Shown: in pieces, positions 1 through 31,247 of the stretch
Layout of the letters: each line of letters starts with the position of its first letter
Numbering within the stretch: the first letter of the stretch is position 1
Origin: a virus
DNA: 31,247 nt
Reading direction: 5' to 3' (one strand)
Virus record (IMG/VR): IMGVR_UViG_3300006753_000036
Coordinates: 1-31,247 of that record
Program-made: the position numbers and the translations under genes
The notes under the pieces: model-generated
What the model was told of the DNA's origin: nothing
The model's database searches: none
What the model saw: only the letters and a program-made list of their open reading frames with translations

Positions 1-149
1 TCAGTGTCGAGCCAGCCCACGGCGTGAACCCAGACGGACGGGGTGAGCGAGCAGCAGTAGGTGCGCTCGGGTTCGCCGTCGATGATTCGGACAAAGCCGT
101 ACAGCGCGCCAAGGTGAACTCGCTGGTAGTCGTGTAGTTCGTCACTCAT
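1..149 (-). CDS. Partial small hypothetical protein (C-terminus outside window)
   Basis: An ATG at 149 on the minus strand opens a frame that stays open to the window edge, giving at least 49 residues beginning MSDELHDYQRVHLGALYGF. The start is supported by a strong AAGGAG Shine-Dalgarno site a few bases upstream, part of the cassette shared by the neighbouring leftward genes. The CTAG hairpin at 163-180 lies between the stop of the upstream gene and this ribosome site. The visible part has two adjacent cysteines and a tryptophan-rich end; I do not recognise a family. It is the last leftward gene in view, and the operon evidently continues beyond position 1. Confidence 0.7.
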   Translation of the reverse strand, partial: MSDELHDYQRVHLGALYGFVRIIDGEPERTYCCSLTPSVWVHAVGWLDT

Positions 150-162
150 CTCTTCTCCTTCC

Positions 163-180
163 CTGCCACCTAGATGGCAG
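163..180 (-). repeat. CTAG hairpin, copy 1
   Basis: An 18-nt near-palindrome with core GCCATCTAGGTGGC on the minus strand. In leftward RNA it pairs CUGCCA with UGGCAG, followed by an inner U-G and a C-G pair. It lies directly after the TAA of the 141-aa gene and directly before the Shine-Dalgarno site of the next gene, where a hairpin could affect ribosome loading. Confidence 0.85.
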
Positions 181-606
181 TTACATAAGCCCAAGCTGAA
201 TCAGCCAGCTCGGTGCTCCGTGTGGACACGTTCCATCGGGCTCAACCCGACACCCGTCGATGGCCTCAGCGGTGTCGAAGAGCATCTGCTCGATCTCCCC
301 GTCGGACGGGATGGCGTACTCCTCCCCGTTCCAGGTCACAGTCGGGACGCCCTTCGGCTTGGCCTTGGGCTTAGGCTTAGGCTTAGCCTTGAACAGGACG
401 TAGTCGGTGTCTTCCAGCCCGTTGAACCGGACTCGGATCTTCTCCAGGTCGGGGTACATCTTCGCCAGGTCAGACTTGTTGGTGTACGGCCCACTGGGGG
501 TCCGAAAGTCTAGGTTCTTGCTGAAGTCGGCTTGCGCCTCCTCCGGCGTCTCGTAATCCCGGCCATACGCCGGCATCAAAGGTTCGATTCCAAACAGTCC
601 ACTCAT
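181..606 (-). CDS. Small phage protein with two modules joined by a Lys-Pro linker
   Basis: A 141-aa protein. Residues 1-72 (MSGLFGIEPLMPAYGRDYET...) resemble, from memory, a small phage family with a GRDYxSxxEAxxDFxxxKDF pattern and a following IRVRF strand. Residues 73-86 are an alternating lysine-proline-alanine linker. The C-terminal part ends GCRVEPDGTCPHGAPSWL, which I recall as a recurring ending in phage and bacterial hypothetical proteins; C119, C127 and H129 could bind a metal. The start at 606 overlaps the end of the upstream gene and has a GAAGGAGAG ribosome site. Function is unknown; the two parts are better seen as a fusion of two common small-phage modules. The gene is leftward and cotranscribed with its neighbours. 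Confidence 0.85.
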   Translation of the reverse strand: MSGLFGIEPLMPAYGRDYETPEEAQADFSKNLDFRTPSGPYTNKSDLAKMYPDLEKIRVRFNGLEDTDYVLFKAKPKPKPKAKPKGVPTVTWNGEEYAIPSDGEIEQMLFDTAEAIDGCRVEPDGTCPHGAPSWLIQLGLM

Positions 607-1160
607 CTCTTCTCTCCTTCCGGGCGGTTAGCCCTCTTCATCCACTCAAGAAACTTGAACCAAGCGAGCCGAACCCTCTGCCACAGGGTGAGCTGCCCAA
701 CGATGATCACCTCGTCCAAGTCGTAGTTGTATTCCCGCTTCCTTACGTCGAGCTCGTTGTTCGCGGCGAAGTCGAGGAACTCGAGGACCTCCTCGGGGCT
801 CAGCCATCCGCGGACTTGGCCGCCGCAGTTTTCGTCGAACGAGTGCCACATAACGTCGTCGCCCTTCATCATGTTGGGGGTTTCACCCTCACGGATGTCG
901 CGCCAGGCTGCGATCTCCGCCGTAAATGCGGTCCAAGGGAGCCACCGCTCCGCCGCGTTCAGTGCGGCCCTGAGTGGGGCGCCCTTGTTCGACGAGTAGT
1001 TCCCTGGCCCCCACTGAACGCTGACGGTGTTCCCGTTGGGGAGCTTCACGTGGAACCCGTGAACACCAAAGGTTGCTAGGCGTTGGTATTCAGTGCGCCA
1101 CCGGGGCGGTCGCGGACCCTCGGGGTCTCCCGTGATGCCGCCGAATGTGGAAAATTTCAT
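603..1160 (-). CDS. Conserved phage hypothetical protein with GFHVKLPNGNTVSVQWGPGNY motif
   Basis: A 185-aa protein. Residues 33-57 (GFHVKLPNGNTVSVQWGPGN then Y) followed by TAEIAAWR at 80-87 match, from memory, a widespread phage small-protein family in which a beta-strand motif ending in VQxGPGNY precedes an AEIAxW motif. Residues 117-133 (RGWLSPEEVLEFLDFAA) resemble its usual C-terminal helix. The family has no assigned function that I know of. The remaining C-terminus (150-185) is basic and tryptophan-rich and could be amphipathic. I chose ATG at 1160, preceded by GGAAGGAAGTGAG, over an upstream ATG at 1256 that would run through the small gene at 1184-1291. The last residues, EGEKR, are read from the ribosome site of the next gene, with an ATGA overlap. 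Confidence 0.85.
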   Translation of the reverse strand: MKFSTFGGITGDPEGPRPPRWRTEYQRLATFGVHGFHVKLPNGNTVSVQWGPGNYSSNKGAPLRAALNAAERWLPWTAFTAEIAAWRDIREGETPNMMKGDDVMWHSFDENCGGQVRGWLSPEEVLEFLDFAANNELDVRKREYNYDLDEVIIVGQLTLWQRVRLAWFKFLEWMKRANRPEGEKR

Positions 1161-1183
1161 CTCACTTCCTTCCTTGCCAGCCA

Positions 1184-1291
1184 CTACAGGCAGGCACATA
1201 GGGCCATACAGGCCGTCACGATGACCCCGGTCGTCAACATCGACGCCAGAGCCCAAGCTGCATACATCTCAATCGGATTCCAGTCCTTCAT
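1184..1291 (-). CDS. Small single-pass membrane protein (35 aa)
   Basis: A 35-aa frame starting at ATG 1291 (MKDWNPIEMYAAWALASMLT...) and ending TAG at 1184. It overlaps the stop of the upstream 69-aa gene by ATGA and has the full GGAAGGAGAGAAGGA ribosome cassette, so translation is well supported despite its size. Residues 10-35 are almost entirely hydrophobic (AAWALASMLTTGVIVTACMA and on) with three cysteines near the end, consistent with one transmembrane helix and a short acidic N-terminus. The role is unknown. Small membrane proteins in phage early regions can be inhibitors or holin-like, but nothing here singles out either. Confidence 0.7.
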   Translation of the reverse strand: MKDWNPIEMYAAWALASMLTTGVIVTACMALCACL

Positions 1292-1306
1292 TCCTTCTCT
1301 CCTTCC
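1288..1306 (-). promoter_or_regulatory. Repeated translation-start cassette
   Basis: GGAAGGAGAGAAGGAATGA on the minus strand. It holds a strong Shine-Dalgarno site and, in its last four bases, both the next start (ATG) and the previous stop (TGA). The same 19 bases recur at 1494-1512 and 1814-1832, with close variants at 2035-2053 and 603-621. Confidence 0.85.
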
Positions 1307-1497
1307 TCGTCTTCCCACCCTTGTGGGGGGGCCGAAACATATCCCTCGTCGTGGGCACGAAACTCAACGGTGGTGGGTCGTCCATACTGCTCGACCATAT
1401 GCGTCAGAGAGTGCTTATCTCCGTAGCGGTCAACTAGGACGACGAAGGACCCGTTGTCCCACCCCAGGAACACCCGGTCCTCGCCAAACTTACTCAT
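1288..1497 (-). CDS. Hypothetical protein (69 aa)
   Basis: A 69-aa acidic protein (MSKFGEDRVFLGWDNGSFVV...) with an N-terminal run of likely beta-strands (RVFLGW, SFVVLVDRYGD) and a very acidic end, WEDEEGEKE, whose last five residues are encoded by the Shine-Dalgarno cassette of the next gene. The start overlaps the stop of the upstream gene by ATGA and has its own copy of the cassette. I do not recognise a family. Confidence 0.8.
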   Translation of the reverse strand: MSKFGEDRVFLGWDNGSFVVLVDRYGDKHSLTHMVEQYGRPTTVEFRAHDEGYVSAPPQGWEDEEGEKE

Positions 1498-1512
1498 TCC
1501 TTCTCTCCTTCC
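1494..1512 (-). promoter_or_regulatory. Repeated translation-start cassette
   Basis: Identical 19-base cassette (GGAAGGAGAGAAGGAATGA on the minus strand) that starts the 69-aa gene. The CTAG hairpin copy 2 abuts it on the upstream side. Confidence 0.85.
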
Positions 1513-1817
1513 CGCCAGCTAGGTGGCAGACGCTCGCCTTCGGCCAGCGCTTCTCGATACCCCGCCAACTCCGCTAGGAGCGGACGAAGCCAGTTCCAAC
1601 CTGCGACATTGCAGGTCACCCTTCCTTCGTGTGGTGTGAACAGTTGAGCCCCGTTCCCCAAGCCGGCGTCCTGGACACCGAAGGGGCGCAGCAGTTCCAT
1701 GTCTCTGTCCGCTAGGGCCTTGATCGCATCAGGGCCAAGCCTGGCCGCGGCATCCATGTACTCGTCTCGCCACGCGAGCAGGACACTCTCGTCACGTTGG
1801 TTCTTAGAATCACTCAT
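1494..1817 (-). CDS. Hypothetical protein (107 aa)
   Basis: A 107-aa protein (MSDSKNQRDESVLLAWRDEY...). The N-terminal half looks helical (WRDEYMDAAARLGPDAIKAL). A middle part, GRVTCNVAGWNWLRPLLAEL, suggests a further helix. The C-terminus LPPSWREGEKE is unusual because it is read through a CTAG hairpin copy (LPPSWR, 1512-1529) and then through the ribosome cassette of the next gene (EGEKE). The start has ATGA overlap with the upstream gene and a perfect cassette. No recognised family. Confidence 0.8.
   Translation of the reverse strand: MSDSKNQRDESVLLAWRDEYMDAAARLGPDAIKALADRDMELLRPFGVQDAGLGNGAQLFTPHEGRVTCNVAGWNWLRPLLAELAGYREALAEGERLPPSWREGEKE
1512..1529 (-). repeat. CTAG hairpin, copy 2 (inside a coding end)
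   Basis: On the minus strand CTGCCACCTAGCTGGCGG. The outer T-G is a wobble pair in leftward RNA and the inner seventh pair is a C-C mismatch. Unlike the other copies it lies within the last codons of a gene (LPPSWR), just ahead of the next ribosome site. Confidence 0.7.
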
Positions 1818-1832
1818 TCCTTCTCTCCTTCC
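1814..1832 (-). promoter_or_regulatory. Repeated translation-start cassette
   Basis: Third identical copy of GGAAGGAGAGAAGGAATGA on the minus strand, starting the 107-aa gene and ending the 74-aa gene. Confidence 0.85.
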
Positions 1833-2038
1833 TGTCCGTAGGTGAGCCCAGCAAGAGCCCCATCAAGAAGGGCTGGGAGGACCCGAAGTCGCGACCAGAG
1901 GATTATCCAGCGCATGGGGTTGCTGCTTCTCTGACTGCGGCATAAGGCCCCGTCTCTCGCGAGGCGGAGTTGGGTCCTAGACTGTCGCAACAGGCGGAGG
2001 ATCTCCGCTTGGTCATCGACTGAGTTTGGTCTACTCAT
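1814..2038 (-). CDS. Hypothetical protein (74 aa), basic
   Basis: A 74-aa arginine-rich protein (MSRPNSVDDQAEILRLLRQS...). Residues 8-27 would form a basic amphipathic helix; 42-66 (MRWIILWSRLRVLPALLDGA then LAGL) is hydrophobic and could associate with a membrane, although it contains arginines. It ends QEGEKE from the next cassette. The start overlaps the upstream stop by ATGA with a GGAAGGGGAAAAGGA ribosome site, a slightly diverged cassette. No family recognised. Confidence 0.75.
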   Translation of the reverse strand: MSRPNSVDDQAEILRLLRQSRTQLRLARDGALCRSQRSSNPMRWIILWSRLRVLPALLDGALAGLTYGQEGEKE

Positions 2039-2322
2039 TCCTTTTCCCCTTCCTCGGCAGCCATCTCAATCTCCTTCAGGCAGTGTCGGCATTGCGTAGG
2101 CTTGACGCCTGCCCGCCGCACCGCAGCGGGGGAGAAGCAAAACCGGATAGCCTGAGCGAAGTCCCTAGCGACCTGTTCGTCTTCCCGGGTCGGCGGGATT
2201 CCGGTTCCCGGGGGGGCGTGGCGACGTCCGTCCAGGTACCACTTGAGCACCCGGAAGACCGACTGGAGTGTCTCCGGTGAGACGTCCGACAGTGGGCCAA
2301 CGGGGATGTTCTTTGGTCTCAT
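2035..2322 (-). CDS. Hypothetical protein with a CxxC pair (95 aa)
   Basis: A 95-aa protein (MRPKNIPVGPLSDVSPETLQ...). Residues 17-32 look like an amphipathic helix (ETLQSVFRVLKWYLDG). The C-terminal part has C78-R-H-C81, with another cysteine at C62, so a small metal site is possible but not established. The end AAEEGEKE is partly decoded from the next ribosome cassette. The start lies one base after the upstream TGA with a GGGGGAGTTGAG site. No family recognised. Confidence 0.78.
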   Translation of the reverse strand: MRPKNIPVGPLSDVSPETLQSVFRVLKWYLDGRRHAPPGTGIPPTREDEQVARDFAQAIRFCFSPAAVRRAGVKPTQCRHCLKEIEMAAEEGEKE

Positions 2323-2323
2323 C

Positions 2324-2644
2324 TCAACTCCCCCATCTCTCGCAGGCGCGGTCGACCTCGAACTCAGCGACGGCGATCATCGCCTCGACCACCCTGGCCA
2401 AGCGACCGCACTCCCGGGACAGGTCCTCGTCGAGCTCAAGTCCGGGAATGGGGTACGAGTGTTCGACCGCCCCGAGGGCGCGGAGCATCGTATTTGCGTC
2501 AGTCAGGCTGAGTCGCGGAAGGCGAATCCTCTTTTGCCTCCACAGCCTCTCCCGCTCTGGCGACGGACTGTTGTCCTCGCCGTCGAGGACCTCGCCAAAG
2601 AGCCCCTCGAACTCAGCCGCATCCGTGTTGTCTACCTCTTCCAT
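2324..2644 (-). CDS. Hypothetical acidic protein (106 aa)
   Basis: A 106-aa protein (MEEVDNTDAAEFEGLFGEVL...) with a strongly acidic first 30 residues, a basic patch (ERLWRQKRIRLPRLSL) and a helical C-terminus. The ribosome site GGGGAAGTGAG is about ten bases upstream of the ATG at 2644. The gap to the preceding gene is only a few bases. I do not recognise a family; acidic early phage proteins of this size may be DNA mimics or inhibitors, but nothing specific supports that here. Confidence 0.78.
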   Translation of the reverse strand: MEEVDNTDAAEFEGLFGEVLDGEDNSPSPERERLWRQKRIRLPRLSLTDANTMLRALGAVEHSYPIPGLELDEDLSRECGRLARVVEAMIAVAEFEVDRACERWGS

Positions 2645-2651
2645 ATCAAAC

Positions 2652-2786
2652 TCACTTCCCCTGCCACCTAGATGGCAGTTTCAATGGGGCCATCTTTCGA
2701 CGGTCCCGGTTAATGTCCGCGCTCATCTGCCTGAACAGACGACGCTCTCTCCTGTCTCTCAGCCACTGCATAAATCGCTTCAGCAT
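2652..2786 (-). CDS. Small basic protein (44 aa)
   Basis: A 44-aa frame from ATG 2786 (MLKRFMQWLRDRRERRLFRQ...) to TGA at 2652. The start directly abuts the TAG of the upstream gene (TAGATG) and is preceded by AAGGAGGAG, an excellent ribosome site. The product is extremely arginine-rich, likely one amphipathic basic helix that could bind nucleic acid or a membrane. Its last residues (LPSRWQGK) are read through CTAG hairpin copy 3. No family recognised. The coding case rests on the ribosome site and tight coupling, so it is weaker than for the larger neighbours. Confidence 0.65.
   Translation of the reverse strand: MLKRFMQWLRDRRERRLFRQMSADINRDRRKMAPLKLPSRWQGK
2661..2678 (-). repeat. CTAG hairpin, copy 3
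   Basis: Same 18 bases as copy 1, with an inner U-G pair in leftward RNA. It overlaps the end of the 44-aa frame and precedes the ribosome site of the 106-aa gene. Confidence 0.85.
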
Positions 2787-3116
2787 CTACTCCTCCTTCT
2801 CCACAACGCACCACCGGATGTCGCTCGGCTCAATGACCTGCTCCCTTCCGTCGTAGTCGTCGATGATGTATCGGTCTCCGGAGAGCTCCTCGATGCCGAG
2901 AGTGTCCCCGGCGGTATCCCACCTTCCGTGAGCCCGGAATCCCAACCTCTCGACCACCTGGACGAGTCGCGGGTCATGTCTCTCGACAGGCTCCCCTCCA
3001 ATCTCACCGAAGCAATCCAGGCGAAGTCCCAACTCATCCAGGGCCAAAATGGCCTCCTTGCTGAGCGAGAACCCCCCGAACGTCCGATTGAAAACCACCT
3101 TCACCTTGGCGCCCAT
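2787..3116 (-). CDS. Conserved phage hypothetical protein (FNRxFGGFSLS family)
   Basis: A 109-aa protein. The N-terminus KVVFNRTFGGFSLSKEAIL, the middle ERHDPRLVQVVERLG and the C-terminal pattern YIIDDYDGREQVIEP match, from memory, a small conserved protein common in phages and prophages with the layout NRxxGGFxLSxxA, RHDPxLVxVVExLG, YxIxxYDGxExV. Its length is usual for that family. No biochemical function is known to me. The start at 3116 lies inside the end of the upstream 49-aa gene (16-base overlap), with a GAGAGGAGAGAGAG ribosome site. Confidence 0.9.
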   Translation of the reverse strand: MGAKVKVVFNRTFGGFSLSKEAILALDELGLRLDCFGEIGGEPVERHDPRLVQVVERLGFRAHGRWDTAGDTLGIEELSGDRYIIDDYDGREQVIEPSDIRWCVVEKEE

Positions 3117-3250
3117 CTCTCTCTCCTCTCCCGTGGCCTGACCACGACGGCACTCCGGTCCACCTTCTCGGACTTCGCCTTCTCGACTCCCTGAACGGAA
3201 GCAAACGGGACCAGCCTCGCGGCCATGTCCAGCTTCTGTTTAATGGTCAT
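3101..3250 (-). CDS. Small basic hypothetical protein (49 aa)
   Basis: A 49-aa protein from ATG 3250 (MTIKQKLDMAARLVPFASVQ...) to a stop at 3101. It is preceded by AGGAAGGGG at a good distance. The same frame continues upstream to an ATG at 3391, but that extension runs through the structured element at 3270-3354 and has no ribosome site, so 3250 is preferred. The protein is lysine- and arginine-rich (KAKSEKVDRSAVVVRPRERR) and overlaps the next gene by 16 bases. No family recognised. Confidence 0.72.
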   Translation of the reverse strand: MTIKQKLDMAARLVPFASVQGVEKAKSEKVDRSAVVVRPRERRERWAPR

Positions 3251-3269
3251 CCCTGACCCCTTCCTGATT

Positions 3270-3354
3270 AACTGCCACCTAGATGGCAGTTGTGCTCTGA
3301 ATGAACACAGTCGGCCCCACGAGCTCTCACCCGTGAGGCCTGCTCTGTCCACTA
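3270..3354 (-). promoter_or_regulatory. Three-hairpin intercistronic RNA element A
   Basis: In leftward RNA this begins at the TAG of the 90-aa gene, then TGGACAGAGCA, then stem-loop H1 (3313-3340, nine pairs including one U-G, ten-base loop), then GACU, then H2 (3292-3308, six pairs including one U-G, five-base loop), then H3 (3270-3291, CTAG hairpin extended to eight outer pairs). It shares linkers and layout with element B at 3641-3727 while the stem sequences differ. On the opposite strand the wobble pairs would be C-A mismatches. It ends just upstream of the ribosome site of the 49-aa gene. Function is unknown. Confidence 0.75.
3272..3289 (-). repeat. CTAG hairpin, copy 4
   Basis: Core copy inside element A, identical to copies 1 and 3 over 18 bases, with outer AA/UU pairs added to give an eight-pair stem in leftward RNA. 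Confidence 0.85.
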
Positions 3355-3624
3355 GAGTTCGACTACAGTCCGACCCTCGGGGAACTCCCACCCGCTCCGC
3401 TCAAGACGGTCGGTCTCGTCGGTTCGGTTGGATGTCTCGACTCGGATCCGAATAGCCACAACCTCGTCCGCATCGTTCCGGATACGGGTGGTCGTGACCA
3501 CGGGCGGGACACGGCGGGTTCGCTTGTACCCAAGCGCCTGCAATCCATCGGCCATGGCCGCGTTCACAGGCATAAGACTCGCGTCCGCAAAGAACTTCAC
3601 AGTTCCGCTGTTCTTGTCACTCAT
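3352..3624 (-). CDS. Hypothetical protein (90 aa)
   Basis: A 90-aa protein (MSDKNSGTVKFFADASLMPV...). A first half with a possible helix (MPVNAAMADGLQALGYKR) is followed by valine- and arginine-rich strands (VPPVVTTTRIRNDADEVVAI). The layout suggests a small alpha-beta fold, but I do not recognise it. The start has a GGGAGTTGAGAG ribosome site. Unlike most genes here it is separated from both neighbours by about 100 bases, and both gaps hold the related structured elements A and B; its TAG is the first codon of element A. Confidence 0.8.
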   Translation of the reverse strand: MSDKNSGTVKFFADASLMPVNAAMADGLQALGYKRTRRVPPVVTTTRIRNDADEVVAIRIRVETSNRTDETDRLERSGWEFPEGRTVVEL

Positions 3625-3640
3625 CTCTCAACTCCCGGTT

Positions 3641-3727
3641 CTTCGCCATCTAGTTGGCAAAGGTGTTCTCAGTGAACACAGTCGGACGCACAGACCGCGA
3701 AGCCTGTGCGTCCTGCTCTGGCCACTA
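3641..3727 (-). promoter_or_regulatory. Three-hairpin intercistronic RNA element B
   Basis: In leftward RNA this begins at the TAG of the 119-aa gene, then TGGCCAGAGCA, then H1 (3684-3713, ten perfect pairs, ten-base loop), GACU, H2 (3663-3679, six perfect pairs, five-base loop) and H3 (3641-3662, CTAG hairpin with eight outer pairs, one of them U-G). Relative to element A the H1 stem is almost entirely changed yet fully paired, and a U-G pair of H2 in A is U-A here. It ends just before the ribosome site of the 90-aa gene. Function is unknown. Confidence 0.75.
3643..3660 (-). repeat. CTAG hairpin, copy 5 (diverged)
   Basis: Core GCCAACTAGATGGC on the minus strand inside element B. The inner pair is lost (A-A), but the outer stem CUUUGCCA with UGGCGAAG is complete, using one U-G pair. 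Confidence 0.75.
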
Positions 3728-4084
3728 AGCCTTGGCTTGCGCCCACTCCACGATGGCGCTCTCAATTCGCACCCACTCCTCGGCCGGCTGGTCCCAAGCA
3801 GCCCTCCGGATGGGGGTCCGACAATCGGCGGCCCAGTAGTCGCCGCCGCGGTCCTCGCGGCCGACGCGCAGCTCGCGAGACACCATGTCGACGATGAGGG
3901 TGCGGTACTCACGATCAGTCTTCGCGATCTCTTCGCCCGCAGGACGCCGCATCAAAGCGATTCGACGGAGGTCTTCCAGTCCAAGGTCCTTAACGATGTC
4001 GTCGTCGCCACCAGCGGCAGCGTCGTCCGCGATTAAGGTTTGAAGGGAAGCCTCGGCTTCAATCAAAGAAAAAAGGCGTTCCAT
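3725..4084 (-). CDS. Hypothetical protein (119 aa)
   Basis: A 119-aa protein (MERLFSLIEAEASLQTLIAD...), mostly helical, with an acidic first 40 residues and a conserved-looking C-terminal part (REDRGGDYWAADCRTPIRRA). The ribosome site GGGAGTTGAG resembles those of the 90-aa and 95-aa genes. The stop TAG is the first codon of element B. Upstream of the start is a gap of about 370 bases with three CTAG palindromes, so this gene may head its own transcript. No family recognised. Confidence 0.8.
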   Translation of the reverse strand: MERLFSLIEAEASLQTLIADDAAAGGDDDIVKDLGLEDLRRIALMRRPAGEEIAKTDREYRTLIVDMVSRELRVGREDRGGDYWAADCRTPIRRAAWDQPAEEWVRIESAIVEWAQAKA

Positions 4085-4122
4085 ATCTCAACTCCCGGTT
4101 GTGCCCACAAGGGGCGTTTGAA

Positions 4123-4140
4123 CCGCCACCTAGGTGGCGG
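4123..4140. repeat. CTAG palindrome, copy 6 (perfect)
   Basis: CCGCCACCTAGGTGGCGG, a perfect 18-base palindrome, six bases from copy 7. The perfect form gives no strand information. Confidence 0.9.
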
Positions 4141-4146
4141 AGATAA

Positions 4147-4164
4147 CCGCCACCTAGGTGGCGG
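4147..4164. repeat. CTAG palindrome, copy 7 (perfect)
   Basis: Identical to copy 6. The two copies start 24 bases apart, which puts the centres at a little over two helical turns. Confidence 0.9.
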
Positions 4165-4252
4165 GTAATGAGTCGGTGGCCTGGCCAGAACGGACCCGTC
4201 CGTTCCTTCGGCGGCATGCTCGCCAGAGCGTAGAACGGCATCGCCGGGATAA

Positions 4253-4270
4253 CTGCCACCTAGGTGGCAG
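4253..4270. repeat. CTAG palindrome, copy 8 (perfect)
   Basis: CTGCCACCTAGGTGGCAG, perfect over 18 bases and over 20 with the flanking A and T. It lies 88 bases beyond copy 7 in the same gap. Confidence 0.9.
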
Positions 4271-4378
4271 TCATCGCGTGAGCGAAGAGCTCCAGGCGCA
4301 CTCGAGCCTTGTCGGCCAAGGTGCCCGGCTCGGGCGCACGCCCCCAGTGAAGGAGACGGCGGAAACTGAATCATCCAA

Positions 4379-4395
4379 CGGCACCCAAGGTGCCG
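4379..4395. repeat. Inverted repeat with seven-base arms
   Basis: CGGCACC, three-base CAA spacer, GGTGCCG. There is no T-run on either side, so it is not a standard terminator. Confidence 0.6.
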
Positions 4396-4411
4396 CTAGC
4401 ACAAGCGGGCG

Positions 4412-4434
4412 CCCGAAGCCGAAGCCCCGGGCAC
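4412..4434. repeat. GAAGCCGAAGCCCCGGG repeat, copy 1
   Basis: Shared with 5411-5432 and 5444-5466, which lie on the other side of the 290-aa gene. In leftward RNA it can form a short stem with a UUCG tetraloop (GGGGC, UUCG, GCUUC). Confidence 0.65.
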
Positions 4435-4452
4435 CCTATCTGCCAGCGACTG

Positions 4453-5325
4453 CTAACCCGTGGCCTGTAGTGCGGCCGCGCGGTCAAGTACGCTCGTGTC
4501 ATCCTCTGTCAATTCGACGGGCGCTTTCGCACCAGTCATACGCACCAAGGTGTCCCCGTTGTCCTCGGGCTTGGCTGCATCCTTGTTAGCCTTGGCCGTC
4601 GCAGTGTGGACTGCCTTGGCAAACCATTCGGGGACGGTGATGGTCATCTTGACCATCCCGCTATCCTTCAGCGCCTTGGCTGCTTCCTCTCGTTCCGCGC
4701 GCGCCTTCTCTTTCCCTGCCGTATTGGCACAACGCGCAGTCGCGCGGGCCTCGCCGGATTCCTCGGAGATAACAATCCCCCAAGTCTTCCGAGCAGAAAC
4801 GATAGCCTTGGCGATGGGGCCAGACTTCGTGGACACGTACCGGATTCCAACACCGACGTCTCGCTGTCCATTCGCCACCACACCCTCAGGCTTGGCGGAG
4901 TTGAACTTCGTGATACGTCGGGGCAGGGTCCAGTAGTTTCCGGCCTTGCGGAACGTGAACCCGAGTTCCTTCGCACGGGCTTCCCCGCCTTCGGCGGAGA
5001 GGATGGTTCGGAGGAACTCGAACGCGAGCACGTACCCTTCAATCTGTTCTGGCGTATGGTCCGGGCTTTCACCGTTCGGGCCAACCGCAAGGCAGACGCC
5101 ACGGTCAAGTTCGACAGTCCAGAGTCCCAAGTCCGTGCCTTCAGGGCCAGCACCACGGAGGGTAAGGGCCATATCGGCAGTTGGCGGGATAAGGGCTGCC
5201 ACGGTCATTCCGCCGGTACGCTTCCCGTTTGTGGTGCAAACCACAAGGTCAGTAAACGACTTGCGAGCCGCATTCGTTAGATGCTGCTCAAGTACCGTCA
5301 ATTCTCGTTTTACTCTATTCGACAT
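4453..5325 (-). CDS. Hypothetical early-region protein (290 aa)
   Basis: The largest leftward gene, 290 aa from ATG 5325 (MSNRVKRELTVLEQHLTNAA...). I prefer this start, which has GGGAG seven bases upstream, to an ATG at 5439 that would translate the repeat region. The first half looks alpha-beta; around residues 122-165 are FTFRKAGNYWTLPRRITKFN and VGVGIRYVSTKSGPIAKAIV; residues about 195-240 are a lysine, arginine and glutamate-rich helix (KEKARAEREEAAKALKDSGM) and the end is acidic. I do not recognise the family. Its place at the head of the leftward block, next to the repeat-rich region, would suit a regulatory or DNA-binding protein, but that is inference. Confidence 0.8.
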   Translation of the reverse strand: MSNRVKRELTVLEQHLTNAARKSFTDLVVCTTNGKRTGGMTVAALIPPTADMALTLRGAGPEGTDLGLWTVELDRGVCLAVGPNGESPDHTPEQIEGYVLAFEFLRTILSAEGGEARAKELGFTFRKAGNYWTLPRRITKFNSAKPEGVVANGQRDVGVGIRYVSTKSGPIAKAIVSARKTWGIVISEESGEARATARCANTAGKEKARAEREEAAKALKDSGMVKMTITVPEWFAKAVHTATAKANKDAAKPEDNGDTLVRMTGAKAPVELTEDDTSVLDRAAALQATG

Positions 5326-30700: not shown

Positions 30701-31247
30701 CGGCCCAGGTCGAGCATAGGATTTCGCCAAAACAGGTCCGTCCGGTTACGGACGTTATTCAGAGGGCGTTTGGGGTGGACACCACAGTCCTTGGGTGGAA
30801 CGTCAACCGCGGAACGAAGGAGGCCCCGAACTGGGTGCCGATGAAGCTCATCGACATGATCACAGAGCAGGAGGCCCAGCGGGTTGTCCAGGGGCACTGG
30901 AAGAGGGACGTGACAAGGAGGGCCCTCGGGGCACAGTTCCACAAGCTCGCCTATGACGTAATGGTGGCGAAGGAGGGTAGTGAGGAGGCGGCAGCGGCCA
31001 TGGGCAGGTTCGTGGAGGCTCTTGGGGAGCCCGTCGACATGGCCGACGTTGGACTGAGCGTCCTCCAGGGGGTAACGAACCATGTCTCTAGGGGGATTCA
31101 GTACCGACCCGTAGCCAGGACCGACGCCAGGGCCGACATCCCGCCACTACCATCCGGGGGACTCAGCAAGAAGGTTGCTGAGCACATGATCGCAAGGAAC
31201 AAGGGGAAACTCACAGAACTCCGGGACCTCAGCATCCCACCGCCGGA
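27799..31247 (+). CDS. Very large internal virion-like protein, C-terminus outside window
   Basis: An open frame from GTG 27799 to the window end, at least 1,149 residues; the ribosome site is AAGGAG in the end of the previous gene. The first 50 residues carry three SRFGGxLE repeats (S7, S20 and S44). Later parts are mostly helical, with segments such as VLSWFSRPFYSTVSVSADLD, VDRIAAAGKGSPGAEAVRDF and a lysine-rich coiled-coil (AQAKKVRDLEKRIEKLKVPK). Such giant helical proteins at this position in podoviruses are internal core or ejection proteins, sometimes with a lytic domain; none is visible in the part present. GTG start chosen because no other start fits the gap. Confidence 0.75.
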   Translation, partial: MADGGTSRFGGTLEGDPLVSRFGGALEEEGVPTEAAAADVGQVSRFGGVLEDDTAVEGPGPPPLTGVNAPVTDASEIDPLITGVSEDLEAEIEARVAQMIESARARQEEQDAGRHLGPEPESPALRIGSDVGAPAGPPPRYGGFFTGEVAPESPEELEARLGYDPMAEVWDAGPLLSSKTPQQTVLQSRRVRAAGMDDPEEKRKYKEETAELVEDIRAQHMIRDADEWQRLRELGMSASEEQAIVGLVEDVGPAALQEWENWDLPEDHPDRVSSPAAMMRKAYRDGLEREGLIEELRIREERLAEIEGGDRTGWFDPATEEGASRAQELIAQLDRAAVIVDKEKDYQMTKRVLGMSEKVSEALGIPEEQVEAIALARFVNEYAHTQMPDPKAYDLIAQGFTPPMAGELTPGWEKATVAEKVLSWFSRPFYSTVSVSADLDYFFQMEPQERQDWADKLHPGDPRKPVFLEIGGVRYDKDGERVLSIIDEQNRIEGLYDADVHGRLSGLKWQLRKAYWDANALDPYGFNIYLPHPWQKIERGGIIAEGERLTGPHEIRSRGLAAQLVGSPIKTDDPAMMAHISKEEQRWMSHVDAQWWGLGTAIGIDNKYYKGPPDPLAALFIPKSKRQDILKQIEAGDPLAGMWTANMFQIIAPDLAAPYGGVIAATGKLLGAPGKIKAGGSFFTPQGDRMRTAQQARQGQKVVAEMERRALAAGREVSQTEKDAAVRLVFDGMDLAYNDVAALASVGAKYTPENLGRGTREIKKTLRGPDDPAWRWVKHIDFDEAIYFDEGLPNFDSTKVRVTYGDDPIPSVGAVVDRIAAAGKGSPGAEAVRDFLYGKGAARKVRQRRGLIPEEATVIPEEKAATAARLQDQLDAEKAKLAPMEAGAGRRAGEAPRLHKKRVAAQAKKVRDLEKRIEKLKVPKELTPDEVVDHMLAEMFDPLRPASMFPKRTSGNVFKVFDGAGRMAAQVEHRISPKQVRPVTDVIQRAFGVDTTVLGWNVNRGTKEAPNWVPMKLIDMITEQEAQRVVQGHWKRDVTRRALGAQFHKLAYDVMVAKEGSEEAAAAMGRFVEALGEPVDMADVGLSVLQGVTNHVSRGIQYRPVARTDARADIPPLPSGGLSKKVAEHMIARNKGKLTELRDLSIPPP
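27817..27951 (+). repeat. Three imperfect copies of a 24-base SRFGGxLE-coding unit
   Basis: Copies at 27817-27840, 27856-27879 and 27928-27951 encode SRFGGTLE, SRFGGALE and SRFGGVLE, with differences mostly at silent or fourth-from-last residue positions. The spacers between them are acidic and of different length. Confidence 0.8.

Follow-up and report, generated by a model that had tools for sequence, protein, structure and literature searches.

A recurrent RNA element at the stop codons of small leftward genes in an unplaced tailed phage

Two intergenic gaps carry copies of one RNA element

The IMG/VR virus record IMGVR_UViG_3300006753_000036, analyzed here over its entire 31,247 bases (the window), originates from an unplaced tailed phage whose terminase is at most ~29% identical to the terminases of the best-listed named phages among the matches listed. 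All genes at positions 1–5,325 run leftward. Two of them, coding for proteins of 90 and 119 amino acids (aa), are each followed by a gap of ~100 bases that harbors an RNA element, A located 3' of the 90-aa gene and B located 3' of the 119-aa gene. An earlier note made from the DNA letters had placed A at 3270–3354 and B at 3641–3727 and had described both as leftward RNAs consisting of three hairpins (H1, H2, and H3). Positions and strand were reproduced, and the sequence changes listed for the three hairpins are correct as written. The widest leftward gap among these genes (~370 nucleotides, nt) is however found upstream of the 119-aa gene.

Searching IMG/VR with the 90-aa protein yielded one related contig, G001, and no other contig of this collection was found to encode a relative. 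Its locus L013 contains three further copies of the ~66-nt leftward element, so that five are known in total, two of them in the window. Orthologues of A and B (A' and B') follow the 90-aa gene and the 119-aa gene, as in the window, and a third copy, termed C, is located 3' of a gene of ~100 aa that is absent from the window. An occurrence confined to the surroundings of the 90-aa gene, as initially proposed, therefore holds within the window, but not in the relative, where C follows another gene. The start at a stop codon, claimed at first for A and B, extends to all five copies; four of them have TAG, whereas the fifth has a TGA located three bases further in. The element has a conserved 5' arm, AGUGRNCAGAGC, and its single-stranded or loop letters CAGAGC, ACUGUG, and AYUSA are invariant in the five-sequence alignment. 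Element A is 91% and element B 81% identical to its orthologue, the corresponding values for the preceding genes being 74% and 81%. Judged from these sequences, A and B are copies of a predicted intercistronic, cis-acting RNA element in the leftward operon of a phage group.

Covariation supports H1 and H2 on the leftward strand

Leftward-strand folds of A and B surpass those of shuffled sequences (z -6.7 and -6.3, respectively, none of 200 shuffles being as good), and the opposite-strand folds reach z -2.5 and -3.6. H1 comprises 12 alignment pairs, four of them with double changes, and one pair position is seen as C-G, A-U, G-C, and U-A; the sequence of this stem is free and its length roughly constant at 10–13 base pairs (bp). 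H2 comprises six pairs, of which one is doubly changed in C, from U-A to C-G, and another shows G-C replaced by G-U. Altogether, pairing is seen in 98.9% of the H1 and H2 cells, with a covariation score of 0.47 vs 0.25 in shuffles; none of 500 shuffles reaches the observed value. Between orthologues (A–A' and B–B'), seven single-sided changes and one double change affect pairs of H1, H2, or the outer stem described below, and none of these breaks a pair; random changes would preserve a pair in about a quarter to half of the cases. Outer stem and H1 jointly contain 13 G.U cells in the leftward RNA, three other mismatches and no A.C cell. The leftward RNA is therefore the strand under constraint, in line with the wobble argument of the earlier note, and its view of A and B as paralogous structured RNAs with compensatory changes is substantiated by the three further copies and by the counts against shuffles.

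A covariance model (R1) was built from all five copies and scores them at 76–87 bits, as expected for the very sequences that it was made from. Beyond these, R1 detected no clear member elsewhere in the window or G001 or in the set of pattern hits; once the same elements read from the opposite strand are set aside, the window's next best score is 20.7 bits. Rfam 15 contains no family at or above the gathering threshold and no credible match even at a permissive E-value, in agreement with the earlier failure to recognize a known family. IMG/VR pattern scans with both element halves returned only the one related contig, along with unrelated matches that lack model support. No match to the element was found in five whole genomes, and the DNA of the element region matched none of 50,697 phage records. 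A GTDB pattern scan delivered 81 loci, and the recurrent matches in Pseudoalteromonas among them were rejected as a coincidence of the H2 sequence; these are located immediately upstream of a gene with a T run behind, resembling the terminator of a thr-type leader. Collectively, A and B belong to a previously uncatalogued RNA family, the shape of which is kept while its sequence changes in two related phages. This adds a covariation-supported family that has to date been seen in a single group of uncultured phages.

Table 1 Positions of elements, genes, and palindromes in the window
Feature	Position	Strand	Remarks
Element A core (H1 + H2, TAG of 90-aa gene at 3352-3354)	3291..3356	-	R1 83 bits; fold z -6.7; orthologue L013 2445-2510
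Element B core (H1 + H2, TAG of 119-aa gene at 3725-3727)	3662..3729	-	R1 77 bits; fold z -6.3; orthologue L013 2043-2118
H3 copy after element A	3271..3290	-	dispersed palindrome TGCCA-N6-TGGCA, CTAG centre; 23 nt before next start codon
H3 copy after element B	3641..3662	-	20 nt before start codon of 90-aa gene
49-aa open reading frame, downstream of A	3101..3250	-	unrelated 99-aa gene at this place in L013
90-aa gene, upstream of A	3352..3624	-	no known family; L013 orthologue, 64% protein identity
119-aa gene, upstream of B	3725..4084	-	no known family; L013 orthologue, 71% identity
Irregular hairpin just past stop of 290-aa gene	4389..4451 (4375-4456)	-	R1 20.7 bits, borderline; z -4.3; not counted as member

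Two mutually exclusive folds

A string of three hairpins does not describe the element correctly, as H3 is independent and dispersed (see below), and H1 together with its flanking arms forms a longer hairpin in competition with H2. In isolation, all five copies fold best into a single irregular hairpin of ~22 bp rather than into H1 and H2. Its outer stem results from pairing of AGUGRNCAGAG with CUGUGYUCAYU and encloses H1; for element A, this corresponds to AGUGGACAGAG pairing with CUGUGUUCAUU. Every copy of the long hairpin carries a G.G mismatch and a 2x2 internal loop. As the 5' half of H2 is needed for the outer stem, only one of the two can form at a time. The long hairpin is 3.6–8.7 kcal/mol better than H1 and H2 in each isolated copy, and blocking the 5' arm leads to the H1 and H2 fold in all five. 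For four of the five copies, the next gene's ribosome site is accessible to about the same degree whichever fold forms, which argues against simple masking. Inspection revealed no U run behind H1, H2, or H3 in any copy, and the hairpins are therefore not ordinary intrinsic terminators.

H3 is a dispersed palindrome

H3 had been taken as a part specific to A and B. The palindrome GCCANCTAGNTGGC is however present nine times in the window (positions 165, 1514, 2663, 3274, 3645, 4125, 4149, 4255, and 5958) and in none of 100 shuffles. Copies of this type are mostly located 15–65 nt upstream of a start codon, in the window mostly ahead of leftward genes, and usually come without H1 and H2. G001 harbors eight of them, some with other centres, and another hairpin stands between B' and its H3 in L013. 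H3 is thus an independent, dispersed palindrome and a separate site ahead of the next gene rather than a part of the element. In a further related phage, G002, comparable places are occupied by another palindrome, TTACCA-N4-TGGTAA, with eight copies (L125 10852-16399; G002 30852-36399). Ahead of one gene shared with the window, the palindromes are swapped at the same spot, followed by a nearly identical ribosome site (window 165-178; G002 30852-30867). Such swapped palindromes in the same short intergenic slots of related phages point to a phage-specific binding system, and the natural reading of H3 is a putative phage-specific binding site, acting as DNA or RNA. Stoperators of cluster A mycobacteriophages are comparable, being short sites in many copies with a consensus that differs between related phages (PMC6550527). 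They share multiple copies and a phage-specific consensus with H3, but are 13-bp asymmetric sites in one orientation (PMC6550527, PMC9283540), whereas H3 is palindromic. Stoperators are bound by the repressor of their phage.

The palindromes also coincide with borders of similarity. Homology between the window and L013 stops at the H3 of A and begins at the H3 ahead of the 119-aa gene. The gene-plus-C unit accounts for the difference on one side, and beyond the other edge the genes are unrelated. On this basis, units of gene, element, palindrome, and leader look like exchangeable modules bounded at the palindromes.

Possible functions of the element

The elements probably mark intergenic positions at which a phage message spanning multiple genes is cut or otherwise handled. 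By analogy, we tentatively favor as the most likely reading that A and B are intercistronic processing hairpins similar to the RNase III sites of phage T7. R1.1 of T7, a structured RNA of 60 nt that includes an internal loop, is located between early genes 1.0 and 1.1 (PMC6121014). The element resembles R1.1 and the other T7 sites as a ~60-nt irregular hairpin, in its case with a 2x2 internal loop, between early genes of a phage operon, and all five isolated copies form such an irregular intercistronic hairpin of ~60 nt and ~22 bp. The free sequence and kept length of H1 are as expected for a duplex substrate. The long hairpin would accordingly be processed, most likely by a double-strand-specific nuclease of the host (e.g., RNase III), and cleavage would uncouple each small gene's message from that of the next, with H3 as a separate site ahead of the latter. 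Unlike the T7 sites, the element starts at a stop codon, has the competing H2 and a conserved primary sequence, and its cleavage is putative.

Several observations weigh against processing of the long hairpin. The internal loop of T7 R1.1 is asymmetric (4/5), in contrast to the 2x2 loop with G.G mismatch of the element. Within longer RNA context, the balance between the folds is closer, and the minimum is not the long hairpin in every copy: element A prefers H1 and H2, and element C another pairing. Changes in the outer stem are mostly one-sided, without a pair-keeping double change, and one pair is lost in both B and C, leaving the outer stem less well supported than H2. Covariation of H2 would moreover be superfluous if the long hairpin alone mattered. 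Finally, the covariation counts derive from five sequences of two related phages, which are few and not independent.

The two folds could be connected via translation. A ribosome terminating at the stop codon would cover this codon and the 8–11 bases up to H1. Owing to this footprint, a terminating ribosome might occupy the 5' arm and let H1 and H2 form instead, which is less certain than processing itself; cutting would then depend on translation of the upstream gene. Taken to its full extent, the element would serve as a sensor of translation termination, in which a ribosome at the stop codon forces H1 and H2, and ribosome-free or untranslated message folds into the long hairpin and is processed. 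We consider this unlikely; if true, each gene of the module series would let its own translation influence what becomes of the message. The stop-codon position together with two exclusive folds offers a concrete, testable idea for the processing of a crowded multi-gene phage message.

Other functions were weighed against processing. H1 and H2 might simply protect or insulate 3' ends with neither specific cleavage nor switching, stabilizing the upstream coding segment or blocking the traffic of ribosomes or exonucleases. Stable GC-rich stems right behind stop codons, double changes residing in H1 and H2, and a similar irregular hairpin behind the 290-aa gene would fit such a barrier, which we regard as possible but doubtful: a plain barrier needs neither the conserved 5'-arm sequence nor AYUSAGARCA, and leaves both unexplained. 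The invariant single-stranded and loop letters could alternatively be contacted by a phage or host protein, be it an RNA-binding regulator, an antitermination factor, or RNA polymerase, and thereby act on transcription or translation of later genes. The put RNA of phage HK022, which binds RNA polymerase, is ~70 nt long and folds into two stem-loops (PMC9378689), and H1 and H2 in all five copies likewise make up a cis-acting RNA of about this size with two stem-loops, situated in leftward genes. However, putL and putR are positioned downstream of early promoters with one site per transcript, whereas the window has two elements and the relative three, each placed after a gene and tied to its stop codon. 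As Rfam offers no credible match and the model of the 90-aa protein is too low in confidence to suggest a binder, protein binding appears rather improbable.

A role at the DNA level is very unlikely. Recombination sites of the integron attC kind would fold as single strands and turn gene plus element into a mobile cassette; an imperfect inverted repeat after a gene, conserved in structure and with a sequence-variable middle, is common to both, and a module of gene, element, and palindrome that L013 has and the window lacks, together with homology edges at palindromes, would agree with mobility. These edges however lie at H3 and the leader, outside H1 and H2, and the wobble pairs all favor the transcribed strand. 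attC sites have the core consensus GTTRRRY (R'/R'': GTTRRRY / RYYYAAC). Inspection of the conserved element ends, AGTGRNCAGAGC and ACTGTGYTCAYTSAGARCAY, revealed no such core, and no integron-type integrase was present among the proteins scanned, in a scan that was not exhaustive. A programmed readthrough of the stop codon, with the hairpin behind it as stimulator, can practically be dismissed. Structure does begin at the stop codon and the window copies remain open for some codons, but A' and B' both carry TAG-TGA, two consecutive stops, which excludes readthrough there.

Neighboring features and related phages

Family searches with the 90-aa and 119-aa proteins gave no match, and their structure models were of low confidence (predicted local distance difference test, pLDDT, 46 and 66, respectively) and left unused. 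The hairpin past the 290-aa gene (Table 1) has a counterpart in L013 (856-945), a stable irregular hairpin past the stop of the corresponding gene with z -4.8. Both are unlike A and B in sequence and similar in layout. Upstream of the 119-aa gene, a long noncoding stretch (window 4090-4345, L013 972-1290) contains several palindromes and conserved blocks. Therein, window 4265-4340 has GAGCCGGGC in common with the B copy of L013; this candidate was dropped, as its fold reaches only z -1.8.

G002 shares 87–99% DNA identity with the window across much of 149-2797, and has other genes and no element in the element region. On its minus strand, positions 33450-33649 (L125 13450-13649) harbor a tRNA-Ala-like gene with a 105-base insert splitting the anticodon loop, which was detected by ARAGORN only with introns allowed and yielded no Rfam match. 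Window 1494-1833 and G002 32092-32431 are 99% identical over 340 bases amid surroundings of ~89–93% identity, which suggests a recent exchange.
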